Assembly: GCA_003609755.1 (NCBI GenBank)
Contig: AP017991.1
Span: 3,521,001 to 3,585,000, forward strand
DNA: 64,000 bases
Direction: 5' to 3'
Source: Planktothrix agardhii NIES-204
GTDB lineage: Bacteria; Cyanobacteriota; Cyanobacteriia; Cyanobacteriales; Microcoleaceae
Shown here: piece after piece, positions 3,024 through 64,000 of the stretch
Layout of the letters: each line of letters starts with the position of its first letter
Numbering within the stretch: the first letter of the stretch is position 1
Program-made: the position numbers and the translations under genes
Notes under the pieces: model-generated
Told to the model about the DNA's origin: nothing
What the model saw: the letters and a program-made list of their open reading frames with translations, nothing else
The model's database searches: none

Positions 3024-4670
3024 CTAATTAATTTTACAACTTGCTAATTTTTCGGCTAAAATTTCTAGGTTTTTCCACCATTTTCCGGTGCTAACTATCC
3101 AATTGCGGGTGGGTAAATGTCCAGTGGGGGCGGATGTTTTATATTCGATGCCATAATCAGGATTATTGGGATTATAGGTTAACCATCCCACCTGCTGACA
3201 AAATTTTCCATAGTCTCCTTCCACTGTTTGATAAATTTGATTTTGGATACTAAATCCAAACCGACTATTACTATATTTTACCCAAAGATGATTAATTGTT
3301 TGTAGATCTTCACAGGGTAAATTGGCTAAATCCTGGGCGTATAAATAGGTTTTTTTAGATTTTTTTAGGGCTTGACAGAGGACAAACCAAGTTTCTTGAT
3401 CCGCTTGTTTCCAACGTTTTTGAGCTAAGAGGGTTTGGAGTTGAGTATAATCGACTCCCACGGCGGATTTTAAAGGATCATTTAAGGGCTGATAGCCTAA
3501 GTTTTGTTTAATTCTCTCTAATAAATTAGGCGTTTTAGCTGGAGTTTGGACGACTTTTGCAGATGTTTTTTTAATCGGAATAACCGGTTTAACTGCTATA
3601 TTTACAGGCGTTTCAGAAGATTGAATTGCTGTTAAGACTTCTTCGGCGGATTTATAACGTTGATTAATGGCGATCACAATTAATTTATTTAAAACGGTTT
3701 CTAAGCGATCGCTAATAATTTGTTGCGGGATTAAATAACTTCGCCAATTCCATTTTTCATCATAATCATCATATAATTTTCCAGGGGAAATTCCCGTGAT
3801 TAAATATAAACAAGTTAGCCCTAAACTATATAAATCACTAGCGGGATAAACGGTTCCTCTCATTTGTTCAGGAGCCATAAATTCCGGTGTTCCGACAATA
3901 GTTCCACTGTGGAGTAAAGCGGTTCCTGTTAACAGTTTGGAAATCCCAAAATCTATTAAAACAATATCATTTTTATTAAAATCCGTGCTTGTTTGAAGGT
4001 CGGAATTTTCTGGGGATAAAATAGGATAAATAGTTGATTTGAGTTTAGCACTAATTTGAGCCTGTTCCTGATCTCTCATTGGAATAGTAGGCGGAATTTG
4101 GGTTAAATCTACAACCGTATCTAAGGAGTTTTCACCAGAGGAGGGGAGAGAACAACGCCGCATCAAATTAGCAGGTTTAATATCTCGATGAATAATATTT
4201 TGTTCATGAATAAATTGTAAAATAGGGAGAATTTGTTTTAAAACTTGCCAAATTTTTTGTTCTGTAAATAATCCATCTTGTTTTAATTCATCAAATAGGG
4301 TTTTTCCCTGAATATATTCTTGAATAATAAACAATTGTTTGTTTTGTTCAAAATGTGCTAATAGTTGAGGAATTTGAGGGTGTTTTCCCAATTGATCTAA
4401 ACGGACTGCTTCCTGACGAAATAATTTAGCGGCGGTTTGATAATCCTGGGGGTTTTCATATTGCACAAAGAATTGTTTAATTACACAATGGGGATGGGAA
4501 GGAATTTGTTGATCAATTGCCAAAAATGTCCGACCAAAACCGCCTCTACTTAAAGGTTTTATGGCGAGATAACGGTTTTGAAGTAATAGAAATTGACCAC
4601 AACCTTGACAATATTCGGCTGAGTTGAGATTTTCTGGATGAGAACATCCTACGGTCATACAATAACTCAT
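3024..4670 (-). CDS. Serine/threonine protein kinase with N-terminal zinc ribbon and C-terminal GUN4 domain
   Basis: This is a cytoplasmic Hanks-type kinase. I start it at MSYCMTVGCS, the usual N-terminus of this cyanobacterial group, giving 548 residues. C4/C9 and C21/C24 form a zinc-ribbon-like knuckle. The kinase core has a glycine loop GGFGRT (43-48), Lys65 (VIKQ), HRDIKPAN (161-168), DFG (240-242) and a later APE box. About 70 residues, rich in Ser/Thr/Pro, are inserted between HRDxxxxN and DFG, where most kinases have about 15. The last ~140 residues are a GUN4 domain (SAVGVDY near its start, GDYGKFCQQVGW later). GUN4 proper binds porphyrins and stimulates Mg-chelatase, so this fusion may link tetrapyrrole status to phosphorylation (inference). 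A palindromic repeat lies just upstream. Confidence 0.92.
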   Translation of the reverse strand: MSYCMTVGCSHPENLNSAEYCQGCGQFLLLQNRYLAIKPLSRGGFGRTFLAIDQQIPSHPHCVIKQFFVQYENPQDYQTAAKLFRQEAVRLDQLGKHPQIPQLLAHFEQNKQLFIIQEYIQGKTLFDELKQDGLFTEQKIWQVLKQILPILQFIHEQNIIHRDIKPANLMRRCSLPSSGENSLDTVVDLTQIPPTIPMRDQEQAQISAKLKSTIYPILSPENSDLQTSTDFNKNDIVLIDFGISKLLTGTALLHSGTIVGTPEFMAPEQMRGTVYPASDLYSLGLTCLYLITGISPGKLYDDYDEKWNWRSYLIPQQIISDRLETVLNKLIVIAINQRYKSAEEVLTAIQSSETPVNIAVKPVIPIKKTSAKVVQTPAKTPNLLERIKQNLGYQPLNDPLKSAVGVDYTQLQTLLAQKRWKQADQETWFVLCQALKKSKKTYLYAQDLANLPCEDLQTINHLWVKYSNSRFGFSIQNQIYQTVEGDYGKFCQQVGWLTYNPNNPDYGIEYKTSAPTGHLPTRNWIVSTGKWWKNLEILAEKLASCKIN

Positions 4671-57197: not shown

Positions 57198-57650
57198 TTA
57201 TAGCGGTGTTTCCCAAAATTTCCCAGTTAATAAAATGTCTATATCCTGGGGAAATGGACAAACAGCAGGAAATACTGCATCATATTCAATTTGCATATTT
57301 CCCAAAGCTTCCTGATAACAATCGAGATAAATTTCTTGTAAATAATTCCTCAAACTCGGAGAGTCCCTTAGCTGTTTTTTAATATCCTGTTGCGTTCGAT
57401 AAATCGTTACTTCCCAACCTCGATAACAATCGGGTAACAGAACATAACACCGTTTTAAAGCGTGTTCAAACAACGTTGTTAACCGACTTTCTAATTCCCG
57501 TTTATCCCGCTTCCCCAAAGATTCGATCTCCTCAATTAAATTGTCCCAATCTAAATTTTCAATATTTCGAGATTTTAACTGATTAACCGTATCTTCAATC
57601 CAGAGTGCAAAATCAATATCATAAAGTGTTTTTAACGAAGTTTTGGTCAT
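57198..57650 (-). CDS. DUF29-domain protein
   Basis: The 150-residue product matches DUF29: LYDIDFALWIEDTVNQLK at the start, LDWDNLIEEIESLGKRDKRELESRL in the middle, then YRGWEVTIYRTQQ and PFPQDIDILL near the end. The family is small, soluble and abundant in cyanobacteria, with no known function. It is convergent with the DUF4335 gene, with a 5-bp gap. The 116-bp gap after it leads to the unknown operon. Confidence 0.9.
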   Translation of the reverse strand: MTKTSLKTLYDIDFALWIEDTVNQLKSRNIENLDWDNLIEEIESLGKRDKRELESRLTTLFEHALKRCYVLLPDCYRGWEVTIYRTQQDIKKQLRDSPSLRNYLQEIYLDCYQEALGNMQIEYDAVFPAVCPFPQDIDILLTGKFWETPL

Positions 57651-57766
57651 AATTATAACCTACATTTTGATTAGGATTTAATTTTAACGTAGTTGAAAAG
57701 CGATCGCCCCTGGATTTATCAATTCCCTGGTTATAGTACAGATTCGCTAAGTTGCTTAATTACAAC

Positions 57767-60124
57767 TTAACTTGCTTGGATCATTCCGTCAATATCGGAT
57801 TGAGACGCTTTTCCTTCAATTAGTTCGGCGAATAGTTTATTTAAAGATTTTTTTTGACTCACTTGGTTTAACATCACTTTTTCATTTTCAAAGTGTTTAA
57901 TTACTTGAATTGATTGTTGTTTTTCTTGAGAATCTTCTTTAAAAAAATCTTGATCAATTTCTTGAAATGTCAGCAAATAACATAAAGATAAAAAGGTATT
58001 TTGTTTATATTGATCAGTAAATTGGTTAGCGGGTTTACTCAGGAGATAGTTAGTTATTAACAAAAAATGATTTTTATAGTTAAAATTTTCAGCCTTTGAT
58101 TGAAAGTTATAATACCACAATAAAATTCGAGCATATCCCCATAAATATTGATTATTTGAGGAGAGATAATGAGAATCAAATAGACTAAAATATTGTTGCT
58201 GTTGAGATTCATTCATAGCTGTTCTCGCCAAAGTTTGTAGATATTTATAATTAAAACCACTATGATTTAAAATATTGGTATTGTTTTTAAAATCTTCAAA
58301 TTTATCATATAAAGATAAATTTTCTGAAAAACTATAAATTTTTCCAATAAATTTTATAGATTCATGAATAAACTGGTTCTGTCTAGGATAGGATTGAATA
58401 ATCAAAGCAGGAATTGTTTTTAAACTCGGATTGTTAAACATTTGTCTTAACTCTTGGATTTCAGCTTCAGAAGAAAAAACATTGATATATTGAAGACAAT
58501 CAATACCTTGAATTTTTCCGGGAATAGCTATATTAACTTGTTGTATTTTTTGAGTAATAGTGTTATAATTAATAGGTCTGGATGGATTATTAGCAAACAT
58601 TTCTAACTCAGTAAATATTTGCTCTAAAACTGGTTTTAATCTAGCAATTAGATGACTCTCACTAAATCTTTGAATTTGTTTTAAAGATTTTTCTTTTCTA
58701 GTCAAATCAATCTGTTGAGAAGGAATATAACCAAAAGATTTAACTTCTTTTTCTTTTCGATCTACCAGTTTAGAGGTAATTTTATAAGTTTCGCTAATAT
58801 CACTTACTTTAAGTTGAGGAGGTGCATCAGGTTTGAGAATAAATTTAATTTCAATATCAATATCTTCTGTACCCGGAAAGTTTTCAATAAAAATTTCATA
58901 ACTTTGAGGAACTTGATTTTTTAAATAGTCTTTACCATTAACTCGGATGGGAAGTGTTGCTGGATTAGTATTTTTAGGAATACGGAATACTTTTTCATTG
59001 GTTTCGGGGATAATTCCTGTTAATGTTTGTTGAACACCTTCATAGGAAATAGCTTGATCTGATAATTTTATCCACTGGGTGATGGGATTATTATTTTTAT
59101 CTTTGTTTCCAATTGCAAATTCAATGGTATCTAAATAAATCCCAAATAAGGGAAAATTAGAGTTTTGTTTCATTTCCCACACTCTAGGAAAAATTTGATG
59201 ATCAGAACTTACACATAAAAATTGCGGAAGTCGCTGTTTAATAATCGGAAACCGATTATATTGAGAAATTAAAATCCAGTGATAATTAGGATATGCTAGT
59301 TGTAGTTGTTCTAAAGCATAAAAATTAACTCTATTATTAATAATAATATTAATATCTGCAAGATTTAACTGGACTTGTTTATAATAAATTTGCTCAGAAT
59401 ACATAATTTCAACGATAATAGACATTGATTCTGTATTTGATTCTGAAGGTATTTGTTCAAATATTGAGATTTTTTGTAAATATTTTTGTAGATGGGCGAT
59501 CGCACTTTCTTCTAAATTACTATTCGGGAAAAAGTTAGTTAAAATTTTGATAGCAATATCTCTACAAATTTGATTGTATGTTTCAACACTATTAAAAGGC
59601 GTTTGAATCAATAACGGTTCTCTTGTATTAAGAATAGGAATTTTATTCTGATCTCGTTTCTGATCTCGTTGAATTGGAATTAAGCGATCGCATTCAAAAC
59701 AATCTAAATCTATAAATATTAACGGTTTATCAGGATTTAGATGTTTCAGTTGTTGATAATAATTCCAATAATAATAGGCACTTTGATATAAATAAGTTTC
59801 TTGGTAATTTAAAAATTGACTGGTACTTAAAGTTAATAAATCAATTGTATCTATAATAATAAATAACCGTTGTATTTCTGTTGAGGTTAACTCCTCACCC
59901 AGAAAATTATTTTTATTAGTTTTAACTTCTAACCGTTGACTACGATGATTTGAAATAACGGGATCAACTCGATAGGAAGTCATTCCATATTCTGTGATTA
60001 ATTCTTGTTTATATCTTCTGGGTAAGTTTCCCTGAGAATGAATTAACTCATCAGGATTTTGATCAAACTGATAAGCATATTGACATAATTTAATATAGGA
60101 TTCTAAATTAAATAGTTGAGTCAT
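57767..60124 (-). CDS. 785-residue protein of unknown function, last gene of the coupled operon
   Basis: I do not recognise this protein. It is soluble with no signal peptide or membrane helix. The N-terminal half is rich in aromatic residues and Gln (about 100-145, YLYQSAYYYWNYYQQL). A middle segment (about 385-470) is beta-strand-like, with IRVNGKDYLKNQ and EIFIENFPG. A helical C-terminal half ends KASQSDIDGMIQAS. No Walker, HKD, PD-(D/E)XK or HTH motif could be placed. Its ATG overlaps the stop of the PLD gene (ATGA), so it is translated with it. The DNA is noticeably A/T-rich. It is probably the sensor, scaffold or effector-specificity subunit of the module (inference). Confidence 0.85.
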   Translation of the reverse strand: MTQLFNLESYIKLCQYAYQFDQNPDELIHSQGNLPRRYKQELITEYGMTSYRVDPVISNHRSQRLEVKTNKNNFLGEELTSTEIQRLFIIIDTIDLLTLSTSQFLNYQETYLYQSAYYYWNYYQQLKHLNPDKPLIFIDLDCFECDRLIPIQRDQKRDQNKIPILNTREPLLIQTPFNSVETYNQICRDIAIKILTNFFPNSNLEESAIAHLQKYLQKISIFEQIPSESNTESMSIIVEIMYSEQIYYKQVQLNLADINIIINNRVNFYALEQLQLAYPNYHWILISQYNRFPIIKQRLPQFLCVSSDHQIFPRVWEMKQNSNFPLFGIYLDTIEFAIGNKDKNNNPITQWIKLSDQAISYEGVQQTLTGIIPETNEKVFRIPKNTNPATLPIRVNGKDYLKNQVPQSYEIFIENFPGTEDIDIEIKFILKPDAPPQLKVSDISETYKITSKLVDRKEKEVKSFGYIPSQQIDLTRKEKSLKQIQRFSESHLIARLKPVLEQIFTELEMFANNPSRPINYNTITQKIQQVNIAIPGKIQGIDCLQYINVFSSEAEIQELRQMFNNPSLKTIPALIIQSYPRQNQFIHESIKFIGKIYSFSENLSLYDKFEDFKNNTNILNHSGFNYKYLQTLARTAMNESQQQQYFSLFDSHYLSSNNQYLWGYARILLWYYNFQSKAENFNYKNHFLLITNYLLSKPANQFTDQYKQNTFLSLCYLLTFQEIDQDFFKEDSQEKQQSIQVIKHFENEKVMLNQVSQKKSLNKLFAELIEGKASQSDIDGMIQAS

Positions 60125-61827
60125 GATTTTGAACCTCTTAATGTGTTAATAATTTGATTAATTTCTTGAGAATCTGTAGTTTTATACATTAAATCATAAC
60201 TTCCTTGATGTTTCAGAGAAAAATTAAAGTTAATTCCGCCGATATAAGCGATTTTCTTTCCTAATAGTGTGATTTTGGCGTGGAGGTTTTTCCGTTTTTC
60301 AATATTGATAGTCGAATCTAAAAATCTCATTTCTTGGTCAATATAAATTATAGTATTTAAACGCTGTAATTGAGATTTTAATTCAGCAGTTGCTTGAAAA
60401 CTACGACTAAAAATTATGACTTTCCCTTCAAAACTACTTAACTCTTTTAAAAGATCATTATAATATTGAGAGGGAGTTAGTAAATTAGAATAAACTGGAT
60501 AAGATCCTTGACGATAACGTTTGACAGTTCGCAATTCAAACCCATCAAAACCCAATACAGGAATTACATGATCTCGACTAGAACATTCCCAAAAATAACG
60601 AAATACATTAATTAGTTGTTGGTGAGTTTCATTATTTTCACAGATAATTCCTGACTCTAAATTAACATCTAAACTGCCCCTTGTCAAATTCACTGATCCT
60701 AAGTAACCATAATTTTCAGAAATGCAAGTTTTTAAATGAAATGCACCGCTTCTGATCTTAACTTTAGCATCTAATAATTGACGTAGACAATCTTTTTTGC
60801 GTTCATCAGCACGTTTAAAATGTTCAGGTAAATACTTAGAAATCGTCACTTGTTGATCAATTCTATCCACAACTTCATCCCGCAAATCTGTTAATATCAA
60901 GACTCCTTGCGGTAGAGTTGCTGATTTTTCACAAATTTGATTAATTAATGCTTCATCTTCGAGGATATAGCTAGAAATTAGTAAAAAATTCTCCGCTTGA
61001 GCAATTATTTTTTGAAATAGGTCACGATTTTTTCGACTGATAATAACTTTATTGATAGGAGAAAGATTAGATTTTAGAGTCATAGTTTCAGGAAAATGAC
61101 TAACAATAATTTTATAATGCTCTTGATATTCTTGAATCAATTGTTGAGTTGATTCTGACTGATCAGAAATATCCGTATTTCCTGCTCGTAAACTGATCAT
61201 TGCTTCCCTTAAACTCAAGGGTAATTCTTGCCAATTTATCCCTAATCTTAATTGGTGATTAATTCTAAAAACTGCCTCCTGAGTATCAACGTTTCTCAAG
61301 AAGCGATCAATTTTTTGATAATTGGGTAAATTCTGCCAAAAAGTTTCCGCTTCTTGCCATATTTTTTCAGCTATTTCTAATGATAACCCCGGATAATAAG
61401 GTTGATCTAAAATAACAGTATAACGACCCTCCTGTTGAGTTTCATTGCCATTAAACAGAGGAAATTGAGGATCATCTGCTAACAAGTCCAAGGTAATTTC
61501 TGAACTAATAAATTTATAAATATAACGGTTAGCAACGCATTTTTTTAAGTTAGACTCCCTAGGAAATAATAGTTTTAAACTAGAAAATTGATAAAGTTGA
61601 TCATCTTGAGTGACTCCATTAGCAATTTTTAATAAATCCGTTAAGACTGAATTAGGGATGAATTGTAACCCAAAAGATTGACGTAAAAGCTGCGGTGTTC
61701 GTCGATGAGTTTGGGTAGCAACTGCTTGAATTTCTTGTAATAATTGCCATAAAGATACATCGGATAAAAGGTTTCCTTCTACCAACTGACGGTAAAATGT
61801 TCCCTGAATTTGATAATGGATTTTCAT
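60121..61827 (-). CDS. Phospholipase-D-fold protein with two HKD-like motifs
   Basis: The 568-residue product has an N-terminal region of no known family (1-260) and a C-terminal PLD-fold half. Motif one is H364-L-K366, followed by GSVNLTRGSL, with Glu in place of the usual Asp. Motif two is H516-A-K518, followed by GGINFNF. PLD enzymes of this kind include bacterial nucleases (Nuc) and defence proteins such as DrmC. Two motifs in one chain would make a complete active site. The gene overlaps its upstream helicase neighbour by 4 bp and its downstream neighbour by 4 bp. Nuclease activity is inference. Confidence 0.85.
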   Translation of the reverse strand: MKIHYQIQGTFYRQLVEGNLLSDVSLWQLLQEIQAVATQTHRRTPQLLRQSFGLQFIPNSVLTDLLKIANGVTQDDQLYQFSSLKLLFPRESNLKKCVANRYIYKFISSEITLDLLADDPQFPLFNGNETQQEGRYTVILDQPYYPGLSLEIAEKIWQEAETFWQNLPNYQKIDRFLRNVDTQEAVFRINHQLRLGINWQELPLSLREAMISLRAGNTDISDQSESTQQLIQEYQEHYKIIVSHFPETMTLKSNLSPINKVIISRKNRDLFQKIIAQAENFLLISSYILEDEALINQICEKSATLPQGVLILTDLRDEVVDRIDQQVTISKYLPEHFKRADERKKDCLRQLLDAKVKIRSGAFHLKTCISENYGYLGSVNLTRGSLDVNLESGIICENNETHQQLINVFRYFWECSSRDHVIPVLGFDGFELRTVKRYRQGSYPVYSNLLTPSQYYNDLLKELSSFEGKVIIFSRSFQATAELKSQLQRLNTIIYIDQEMRFLDSTINIEKRKNLHAKITLLGKKIAYIGGINFNFSLKHQGSYDLMYKTTDSQEINQIINTLRGSKS

Positions 61828-63392
61828 GATAATACTCCTTGACGAATTCTAGGTAATCTCATTCGTTTTAATAGGGAAACTGCATGAGTCCATTTTTCAT
61901 AGTCTCCCCATAAAATCAAGTAACTTTGTCCTCTGGTTAAGGCAATTTTCCAATGTTCTATAGGAATAAGTTTAGGGTTTCCACTACAACAAATTAAGAC
62001 AATAGATGCTTCTTTTCCTTGCCATTCTGTAACAGTTTTAATCATAACAGAAGTATACTCGATCGGACAATTGGCAATTAACTGATCTCGCTGAATTTCC
62101 GAAAAGGTTAATATTCCTATTTTTGGAATTAATTCTAAATCAAAAGTTTTTAAAAATTCTAATATTTTTTCTCCTTCCTGTTGATTAGGAATATCTTCCC
62201 ACCATAACCGATATTCCCACTGTGGAAAATAATCACTCATCTGTTGAAAATTTGTTGATATCCATTCCGAGGAAAACCTATCATAAATTGTAGTTGCTAG
62301 TTCGGGATGTAAACGAAATTGTTCTGACAGTTGTAGGGTATAAGCAGGAAGTAAATATTGCAATAACCAAGGAAAACCATAGAGAACACGCTGGAAAAAG
62401 TTTCGATTCCGAGAAGCAGGAATAAACCCGGTATTTCCATCACCTAATAATACTAATTTATTGGTTAATCCTGAGATTAAGATTAATTCTAACCAGGTTA
62501 ACTGTTGAGCATCTTCAATAATAATTAAATCATAGAAATTTTCCCAGAGGGTTTGACCATCAACACCTAGAAATTCTTTAACAGTTGCTAAACAGGGATT
62601 AAGAGGATTTTGACTTAAATATTGCTCCAGAGTTACTATGGCATTTTTTGATAGATTTTGGTAGGATTGAACTAGAATAAGTTGCTGTTTTAATAATGGT
62701 TCTAGGCGTTTCAATTGATAAGCAAACCAGTTTAACCTTGCTGTACTTAAATCGGGAAATTCTAAACTCAAAGTTTGGGTGAGTTGCGGGATAGATTGGG
62801 TGGTAATTAAGGGTAAATATCTTTCTAGTTTTGCAGGCGATCGCAACTTTTCTAATTCAGTATCAGGTAAACAGTAAAGCGGTAAATAATCTAGTTGTGG
62901 TTGTGCTAAATGATCGCGCTGAAGACGTTCAATTATTGCTGATTGATTCCCCGATCTTTCCGACAATAAATAAGGATATCCAGGTAATTGTTGATAAATG
63001 CTTAATGTACTCGGATAATGACTTAAAATTAAAATGCGTTTTTCATCTTTAATTCCAGCATCCGCAAGATTAAACGCTATTCGAGTTTTTCCGGTTGCGG
63101 GTAAACCAGAAATCACCGTAATCGGACTATTAGATAATCCCATTTCTAAAGATTGGATTTGTTGAGGAGAAAGCGGTAAAACAGGATTAATCGCGGTAAA
63201 ATTAAGTTGTGATCGCTCTTGTAAATAAACCGCACAATTACATATTGTTTCGACAATTAATTCCGTCGGTAATGTTAACTCAGTTTGAGTTTTAACCAAC
63301 TGTTCTAACAACCCTAAACGCCATTCTGGGTCGCTTCCAGAATCGTTAATTTGTGCTTTTAATCCTTGCCAAAATTGTTGTTTATTGATCAT
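61824..63392 (-). CDS. Superfamily 1 (Upf1-like) helicase
   Basis: The 522-residue product has a full set of SF1 motifs: Walker A GLPATGKT (96-103), motif II EDAQQ (293-297), motif III LLGDGNTGF (315-323), LSEQFRLHPEL (355-365), ILTFSEIQRDQL (427-438), motif V TEWQGKEASIV (455-465) and motif VI ALTRGQSYLIL (484-494). The order and wording match Upf1/DNA2-type helicases (SF1B). The chain is short, with no additional domain beyond an N-terminal helical region of 90 residues. The substrate may be DNA or RNA. Start and stop overlap both neighbouring genes, by 11 and 4 bp. Confidence 0.92.
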   Translation of the reverse strand: MINKQQFWQGLKAQINDSGSDPEWRLGLLEQLVKTQTELTLPTELIVETICNCAVYLQERSQLNFTAINPVLPLSPQQIQSLEMGLSNSPITVISGLPATGKTRIAFNLADAGIKDEKRILILSHYPSTLSIYQQLPGYPYLLSERSGNQSAIIERLQRDHLAQPQLDYLPLYCLPDTELEKLRSPAKLERYLPLITTQSIPQLTQTLSLEFPDLSTARLNWFAYQLKRLEPLLKQQLILVQSYQNLSKNAIVTLEQYLSQNPLNPCLATVKEFLGVDGQTLWENFYDLIIIEDAQQLTWLELILISGLTNKLVLLGDGNTGFIPASRNRNFFQRVLYGFPWLLQYLLPAYTLQLSEQFRLHPELATTIYDRFSSEWISTNFQQMSDYFPQWEYRLWWEDIPNQQEGEKILEFLKTFDLELIPKIGILTFSEIQRDQLIANCPIEYTSVMIKTVTEWQGKEASIVLICCSGNPKLIPIEHWKIALTRGQSYLILWGDYEKWTHAVSLLKRMRLPRIRQGVLS

Positions 63393-64000
63393 GATTTAAT
63401 AAATTATCCTTAATTAAACGACTGATTAATTCTAAGAGTTGATAAAGTCCCTGTTCTAACAGAAGATCAGGAACTTGACGTACCCAGATTTTTTGACGAC
63501 TAACTTCTTCAATTTTGCTAGGTTGTAATTGACAATTCGGAGGAGTCTGTAAATAAAATACAAGTCCCGATTGAATATTTTTTTTTCTTGTCAATTTATG
63601 CAGATATAAAATAGCTTGTTTCCAAGTTTCCTTAGAAGGAAAATACCAAAATACCCAGACCGGAAACTGCAATTTTGTAAATTCTAGCGTCCGTGAATTT
63701 AAATCGTGAATTTCTACAGTTATTAACCAATCTCCTAAACGAATATCTTCTGGATGTTTAATCTCAAATACATAAACTTTATCTTGTAAATAAACCCGAA
63801 TTTTAGGAGAACAATGCTGGGACGGTTGCAAATATTCTCCCTGCTTGGGGGTTAGAAAACCCGTTAAATAGCTTAAAGCTTCAACATTAGAATCTTTAAA
63901 TCGCAAAAATGTTGTGGTAAATGCTAAATAAATCACATCCTTTAACAGTTGATTTCTGACTCTCCATAACTTCTCTTTTTCTGACCGTTCGGCAATATAA
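63382..64000 (-). CDS. First visible gene of the operon, truncated at its 5' end by the window
   Basis: The frame stays open past a GTG at 63936 to the window edge with normal codons (EKEKLWRVRNQLLKD...), so the gene extends beyond 64000. The visible ~206 residues contain a beta-rich core (KIRVYLQDKVYVFEIKHPED; LGDWLITVEIHDL) and end in a helical segment (LYQLLELISRLIKDN). I recognise no family. The EIKH and VEIHD segments are loosely reminiscent of PD-(D/E)XK nuclease strands, which is only a thought. It overlaps the helicase start by 11 bp. Confidence 0.7.
   Translation of the reverse strand, partial: YIAERSEKEKLWRVRNQLLKDVIYLAFTTTFLRFKDSNVEALSYLTGFLTPKQGEYLQPSQHCSPKIRVYLQDKVYVFEIKHPEDIRLGDWLITVEIHDLNSRTLEFTKLQFPVWVFWYFPSKETWKQAILYLHKLTRKKNIQSGLVFYLQTPPNCQLQPSKIEEVSRQKIWVRQVPDLLLEQGLYQLLELISRLIKDNLLNHDQ

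Follow-up and report, generated by a model that had tools for sequence, protein, structure and literature searches.

A five-gene operon that lies across the end of a 64,000-nucleotide stretch of the cyanobacterium Planktothrix agardhii NIES-204 (contig AP017991.1, positions 3521001-3585000 of this genome; hereafter the window) is best explained as a Type III-C CoCoNuT with the order cnuB-cnuC-cnuH-cnuE-cnuD, and very probably is one, with the working proposed below. Its most likely role, predicted from sequence, is defence against phages or plasmids. CoCoNuTs, or coiled-coil nuclease tandems, are a branch of the McrBC Type IV restriction systems. An earlier note on this DNA had read the four genes visible in the window as a candidate unrecognised system for defence or nucleic-acid processing. 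The parts of that reading that stand are that the system acts on nucleic acids, is probably defensive and is distinct from DISARM and Mokosh; it is not an unrecognised system, however, because the operon, together with the gene missing from the window, matches the published Type III-C layout (Bell et al., eLife 2024, PMC11090510). The five-gene kind is thus already known, having been described there from sequence, and the matches listed in the literature searches included no experimental study of CoCoNuT Types I-III.

According to the available part of that paper, Type III-C operons encode a CnuB with a coiled coil and an NxD motif, a CnuC with DUF2357, an inactivated PD-(D/E)xK domain and an immunoglobulin-like N-terminal domain, a UPF1-like CnuH with a large helical insertion after Walker A, and a CnuE in which a distorted winged helix at the N-terminus precedes two PLD domains. 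They share with Type III-B a separate CnuD gene, whose product has Hsp70-like nucleotide-binding and substrate-binding domains and HEAT-like repeats, they lack TerY-P, and they occur primarily in Cyanobacteriota; no NxD McrB GTPase has yet been characterised (PMC11090510). The window operon has the gene-level features among these, namely the NxD coiled-coil CnuB, a CnuC with DUF2357 and no conserved E-x-K, a UPF1-like CnuH, a CnuE with two PLD motifs and a separate gene in the cnuD place. Inspection of the translated neighbours by eye, with some of them also scanned against Pfam, showed no TerY-P genes. In the available part of a 2025 preprint, Druantia Types I and II are described as Type IV CoCoNuTs with an inactivated CnuB, and Druantia is cited as phage-protective (PMC12458937).

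The operon and its five proteins

The four minus-strand open reading frames (ORFs) described earlier were found again at the same coordinates, including the open one at 63382-63999, together with their overlaps of 4, 4 and 11 bp (Table 1). Extension past position 64000, proposed in the earlier note, was made with a stretch called L002 that runs beyond the window end (L002 position = window position minus 53,999), and a fifth gene, coding for 745 amino acids (aa), appears in it 40 bp upstream of cnuC. The operon therefore consists of five genes in the order given above. The gene arrangement goes beyond chance, because other genomes hold the same five genes in this order. The genes beyond cnuB, for an ARD-family and a RuBisCO-like protein, have metabolic roles and run in the opposite direction. 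No tRNA genes were found in L002, and a promoter scan gave 42 sites vs 41.5 expected. A DUF29 gene at 57198-57650 was considered as a sixth member and rejected, as it adjoins the empty site in a same-species genome.

Table 1. Operon genes and the insertion that carries them (window coordinates unless L002 is named)
Feature	Position	Strand	Description
cnuD-place gene, last in operon	57767..60124	-	785 aa; Hsp70-like by position and published type description, without significant match here
cnuE	60121..61827	-	568 aa; PLD-family protein, motif 1 HxKx4E then GSxN, motif 2 HxKx4G
cnuH	61824..63392	-	522 aa; UPF1-like SF1 helicase with a non-canonical motif II (EDAQ); Walker A and motif VI retained
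cnuC, 3' part	63382..64000	-	full gene 532 aa, L002 9383-10981, start 980 bp past window end; DUF2357
cnuB	L002 11022-13259, outside window	-	745 aa; coiled coil and NxD McrB-like GTPase; AAA_5
Stretch absent from same-species genome, window part	57718..64000	.	total 9,673 bp, to L002 13391; 218 bp there instead

CnuB matches AAA_5 (Pfam, 3.6e-7) and, over approximately residues 116-379, gives SMC-like coiled-coil matches, every one of which is below its curated cut-off. Its sensor motif, GTMNEDE, is of the NxD form in all 17 cyanobacterial rows, and the protein matches the phage-defence candidate PDC-M26A of PADLOC (2e-43). At its C-terminus, this CnuB ends in ...GSRFWSV, vs ...GSRSGQFEWKGLIYPEEE in three close relatives, and is about a dozen residues shorter.

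The N-terminus of CnuB is hydrophobic in the III-C and III-B-like operons and not in the III-A-like ones. These two labels were given by gene content, the former to plasmids L038, L039 and L071 and viral contig L036, the latter to loci of Caballeronia (L107), Phytobacter (L120), Photobacterium (L121) and Klebsiella (L040). In ORFs read from the earliest start codon that follows a stop, whose real starts possibly lie further in, and in rows that are not independent (GTPase domains are identical in L040 and L120 and nearly identical in L039 and L071), the best 19-residue Kyte-Doolittle mean is at least 1.28 in 16/17 III-C rows and at least 1.79 in 14/17, the row below 1.28 being a broken gene (L032); it is 2.44-3.08 in the four III-B-like rows, at most 0.05 in the four III-A-like rows, and at most 1.39 in the 13 other McrB-like rows except L092 (1.72). 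On hydropathy alone, CnuB would lie at the membrane, and its relatives suggest that the operon products sit there. In the available part of PMC11090510, the N-terminus of Type II and III CnuB is given coiled coils only, a transmembrane domain is given for another group, the CoCoPALMs, and no mention of a hydrophobic CnuB N-terminus in Type III-C was found. The extra coiled-coil gene of the III-B-like operons (L036 8403-9878, L071 6658-7998) also has a hydrophobic start, as judged by eye.

DUF2357 is the N-terminal domain of McrC. The gene truncated by the window end had been thought to have no recognisable domain, which does not hold for the full 532-aa CnuC: it contains DUF2357 (6.4e-7; 29.3 bits vs a Pfam cut-off of 23.3) and is hence McrC-like. 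An active McrC nuclease, hinted at by the F-E-I-K of this CnuC, was rejected, since E-x-K at the likely nuclease place, which was chosen by eye, occurs in one of 12 aligned rows and is hence not conserved. Within the genus, the proportion of nonsynonymous differences (pN) in CnuC is 0.24-0.34 over the two final complete 60-codon blocks, at the C-terminal end, vs 0.00-0.16 in earlier blocks, and in the middle of CnuD it rises to 0.50, most clearly in the comparison with L022. The synonymous proportion (pS) is also raised in both regions, a pattern that suggests swapped alleles rather than selection alone. The available part of PMC11090510 was not found to mention either hypervariable region. 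Taken whole, the five genes are under purifying selection, with ratios of nonsynonymous to synonymous substitution (dN/dS) of 0.16-0.59 in three pairs within the genus.

CnuH is, by modest matches, a UPF1/IGHMBP2-like helicase of superfamily 1 (SF1): AAA_12 of Pfam matches at 4.4e-6 (26.8 bits vs a curated cut-off of 27), and an IGHMBP2-type helicase model at 2.4e-6, far below the model cut-off. The helicase had been described as having intact motifs, which is true of Walker A and motif VI but not of motif II, where E-D-A-Q takes the place of D-E. The canonical D-E is missing from motif II in all 15 III-C rows (ED, EE, AD, EN or ES instead), four of which are close relatives from one genus, and Walker A and motif VI are retained in all 15. 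Where the pattern gave a match, motif II is D-E in 3/4 III-B-like and 1/2 III-A-like rows; it gave none in L106, which was read from the translation, or in L038 and L040, which were left uncounted. The relatives of CnuH suggest a loss of the usual helicase catalytic residues, and no mention of a non-canonical motif II was found in the available part of PMC11090510. Approximately 185 residues lie between Walker A and motif II, the region in which the helical insertion published for III-C would lie.

The description of CnuE as a two-motif PLD-fold protein is borne out by Pfam matches to PLDc_2 (1e-19) and PLDc (7.7e-5). All nine intact rows aligned, broken ones having been left out, share H364, K366 and E371 in motif 1 as well as H516 and K518 in motif 2. 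CnuE is the one operon protein in which conserved nuclease catalytic residues were found, and these predict a nuclease activity.

Distribution and genomic context

The 785-aa protein is present in 15/386 cyanobacterial genomes (G172 and G078 have short remnants, G121 a broken copy) and, by profile and with fragments included, in 33/388 genomes of the order. CnuB is found at 60% identity or more in 15/386 genomes and by any match at 1e-10 in 25/386, and CnuE in 31/386 at 0.001, 13 of these at 1e-33 or better. CnuB and CnuD are found together in 12 genomes; CnuD occurs without CnuB in G131, at a contig end, and as the remnants of G172 and G078. Among 17 loci picked for a CnuD or CnuH match, 14 contain pieces of each of the five genes in the same order, nine with one ORF per gene and five broken by stops or insertions, and the other three are a contig end and two remnants. 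A search of viral contigs for CnuD found none.

A complete operon is carried by the plasmid pSYSX of the model cyanobacterium Synechocystis sp. PCC 6803 (NC_005232.1, SGL_RS01425-RS01445, 11,348-20,500), in whose record CnuD and CnuB have two matching places each. The available part of PMC10899382 reports a complete duplication of pSYSX 4,092-27,731 at 58,810-82,449, a stretch that would include the operon.

In the same-species genome G255, both flanks of the operon are present with 218 bp between them, vs 9,673 bp here (L002 3719-13391). Nine genomes of the genus were searched for the flanks: cnuD is present in G157, G388 and G390 and not in G255, G262, G386, G387, G391 or G389, the last being 73% complete and having its flanks on separate contigs. 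In G386, the same interval contains, among others, a PDC-M06B-like gene and genes for an NB-ARC and a TPR protein, and in G391 one for an AAA_35-WD40 protein, so that it takes alternative cargo. The interval from the DUF29 gene to the ARD gene (after window position 57650; L149-L153) thus varies between members of the genus. In G262, it holds, besides a GlcNAc-2-epimerase-like gene, what by eye is a relative of the PDC-M06B-like gene.

Some neighbours elsewhere were also noted. Two of them, picked by eye, are a Csx21-like gene (linked in PADLOC to Type III CRISPR), which in G002 lies upstream of cnuB (L029 16677-17432), and a protein kinase like PD-T4-6 near the cnuB-cnuC pair of G229 (L105). 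A Shedu gene and restriction genes are among the neighbours in one rhizobial III-B-like relative. The III-B-like operon of L036 lies on an IMG/VR viral contig with an integrase-like gene nearby (3157-4260, by eye), which suggests carriage by a mobile element. A CnuD-like protein on a 21-kb Jannaschia plasmid (L119 9001-11319) is 34% identical to a rhizobial III-B-like CnuD; no annotated McrBC gene is present within the 17 kb shown, and a nitric oxide synthase oxygenase gene lies one gene away.

Proposed working and alternative explanations

In the proposed working, CnuB would form an McrB-like GTPase ring, as its homology suggests, which its hydrophobic N-terminus and long coiled coil would hold at the membrane; here hydropathy is computed and the location predicted from it. 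CnuC would dock on the ring through DUF2357 and activate it, by analogy with McrC. Two variable regions, the C-terminal end of CnuC, where McrC has its nuclease, and the middle of CnuD, may recognise foreign nucleic acid or a complex containing it, a role drawn from their variability and from an RNA-binding proposal in the available part of PMC11090510. With Walker A and no normal motif II, CnuH would be an ATP-gated clamp or adaptor more than a fast helicase, coupling recognition to CnuE, whose observed catalytic residues predict that it destroys phage or host nucleic acid.

A broader proposal, held tentatively and with less than even confidence, is that III-B and III-C form a membrane-anchored sub-branch, in which a coiled-coil-tethered GTPase ring would survey nucleic acid entering at the membrane. 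The III-C helicase would be a switch that binds ATP and hydrolyses it poorly, and swappable modules in the CnuC end and CnuD middle would give a PLD nuclease effector its specificity. Concrete predictions on location, energy use and recognition follow from the hydrophobic N-terminus, the altered motif II and the variable modules; they were not found stated in the available part of PMC11090510. The complete PCC 6803 copy, on a plasmid stretch present twice, and the pair of same-species genomes, one of which has the operon and the other not, bring a first experiment within reach.

Besides the layout, the purifying selection on the five genes, the PDC-M26A match of CnuB and the accessory behaviour of the operon, seen in its patchy distribution, its plasmid copy and its absence from a same-species genome, count in favour of this explanation. 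Several observations weigh against the Type III-C assignment or the role proposed for it, and the defence role and working are themselves predictions. Part of the contrary evidence concerns the 785-aa protein, for which the earlier description as lacking a recognisable domain holds: nothing rose above the cut-off in searches of Pfam, NCBIfam, PADLOC and PDB sequences, and neither the protein nor its alignment matched an Hsp70 family there. Profile comparison, which the earlier note had also called for, was marginal or negative for the Hsp70, III-B-like and III-A-like sets. In all, 28 CnuD sequences were collected. Against a mixed Hsp70 set the protein scored 22.0, reached by 1/60 shuffles in each of two controls, and with DnaK alone as the set the reversed template outscored the forward one (18.7 vs 17.3). 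Its score against III-B-like CnuD was reached by 45/60 and 49/60 shuffles, and that against the III-A-like set by 20/60 and 24/60, with the III-A template giving 19.4 reversed vs 16.0 forward. Among the relatives, the score against the mixed Hsp70 set was reached by 0/60 and 1/60 shuffles for III-A-like CnuCD and by 7/60 and 19/60 for III-B-like CnuD, that of III-B-like CnuD against III-A-like was reached by 1/60 and 1/60, and the III-A-like and III-B-like relatives, searched against PDB sequences, gave no lead. An I-S-x-Y-N-x-F block may be an Hsp70 adenosine motif, which is a judgement by eye and no computed result. The putative Hsp70 nature of the protein thus rests on its position and on the published type description, no comparison having confirmed it.

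Other contrary points come from the partners and surroundings of the operon. CnuB occurs without CnuD in G109, where cnuB stands alone (L104 8875-11520), G229 has only cnuB and cnuC (L105 8851-12703), without helicase, PLD or CnuD matches, and G070 (L106) has cnuB-cnuC-cnuH-cnuE with only a remnant of cnuD. In a tree of CnuB that leaves out the short GTPase rows L089, L094, L095 and L096, the 17 cyanobacterial rows form a single clade (90/97), separate from the III-B-like and III-A-like clades, which favours the assignment, but their fork is not starred and has a long-branch warning, and the tree contains no labelled published III-C sequence. Enrichment beside known defence genes, another check that had been proposed, gave no clear defence-island signal for III-C: at five loci, one of the ten flanking proteins scanned matches PADLOC at 1e-5 (PDC-S01).

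The failure of the 785-aa protein to match Hsp70 in Pfam, NCBIfam and PDB sequence searches, and its lack of significant similarity to III-B-like CnuD, would also fit a related but separate McrBC-derived cyanobacterial NxD system outside published III-C, with an unrelated sensor in the CnuD place. This is unlikely, as the protein has the same operon place and nearly the same length as the III-B-like one (786 aa), its best match to the Hsp70 set was reached by one in 60 shuffles in each control, and a separate CnuD gene is published for both III-B and III-C (PMC11090510, available part). The earlier note had held a DNA-repair or RNA-decay complex to be equally possible. A UPF1-like helicase next to a nuclease, the purifying selection, and the nine of ten scanned flanking proteins without a PADLOC match, with three of those scanned against Pfam belonging to metabolic families, would agree with such a housekeeping role, but it is disfavoured because of the patchy distribution of the 785-aa protein and the clean empty site in the same-species genome. 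The plasmid copy on pSYSX, the broken state of 5/14 five-gene loci and the hypervariable regions also speak against it, and it is considered very improbable. A DISARM-like or Mokosh-like system, to which the best PADLOC matches of the PLD protein (DrmC, 2.1e-8) and, weakly, of the helicase (MkoA, 4.1e-6) point, has next to no probability and was rejected: the partners are McrB-like and McrC-like, helicase and PLD protein are separate genes, and the proteins scanned have no DUF1998 or DrmA/DrmB match.

Comparison with known systems

Compared with DISARM, with which it shares a DrmC-like PLD protein, the operon has an McrBC-type core, and its scanned proteins match none of DrmA, DrmB and DUF1998. 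Its helicase weakly resembles MkoA of Mokosh, from which it differs in having five separate McrBC-type genes and no helicase-PLD fusion. Like McrBC of Escherichia coli, it pairs a DUF2357 protein with an AAA+ protein of the McrB type; that system has NxxD and an active McrC nuclease (PMC11090510, available part), whereas NxD and no conserved E-x-K are found here.

The resemblance is closer to the CoCoNuTs of Type III. III-A-like operons share the NxD coiled-coil GTPase, the UPF1-like helicase and the DUF2357 protein, but they have TerY-P-type genes (L107), long DUF2357 proteins of 1104-1348 aa (L107, L120, L121) and a CnuB without a hydrophobic N-terminus. III-B-like operons share the hydrophobic CnuB N-terminus, the DUF2357 protein and a separate protein of about 785-796 aa encoded last in the operon; they differ in their long helicase protein (1047-1052 aa in three of four) with D-E in motif II where it was found (three of four), in an extra coiled-coil gene and in the lack of a PLD-profile match. 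From published Type III-C, the operon differs in its hydrophobic CnuB N-terminus and non-canonical CnuH motif II, neither of which was found in the available part of PMC11090510, and it agrees with that type in its NxD coiled-coil GTPase, its DUF2357 protein, in which no nuclease motif is conserved, its UPF1-like helicase, its two-PLD protein, its separate fifth protein with no TerY-P seen, and its cyanobacterial host.

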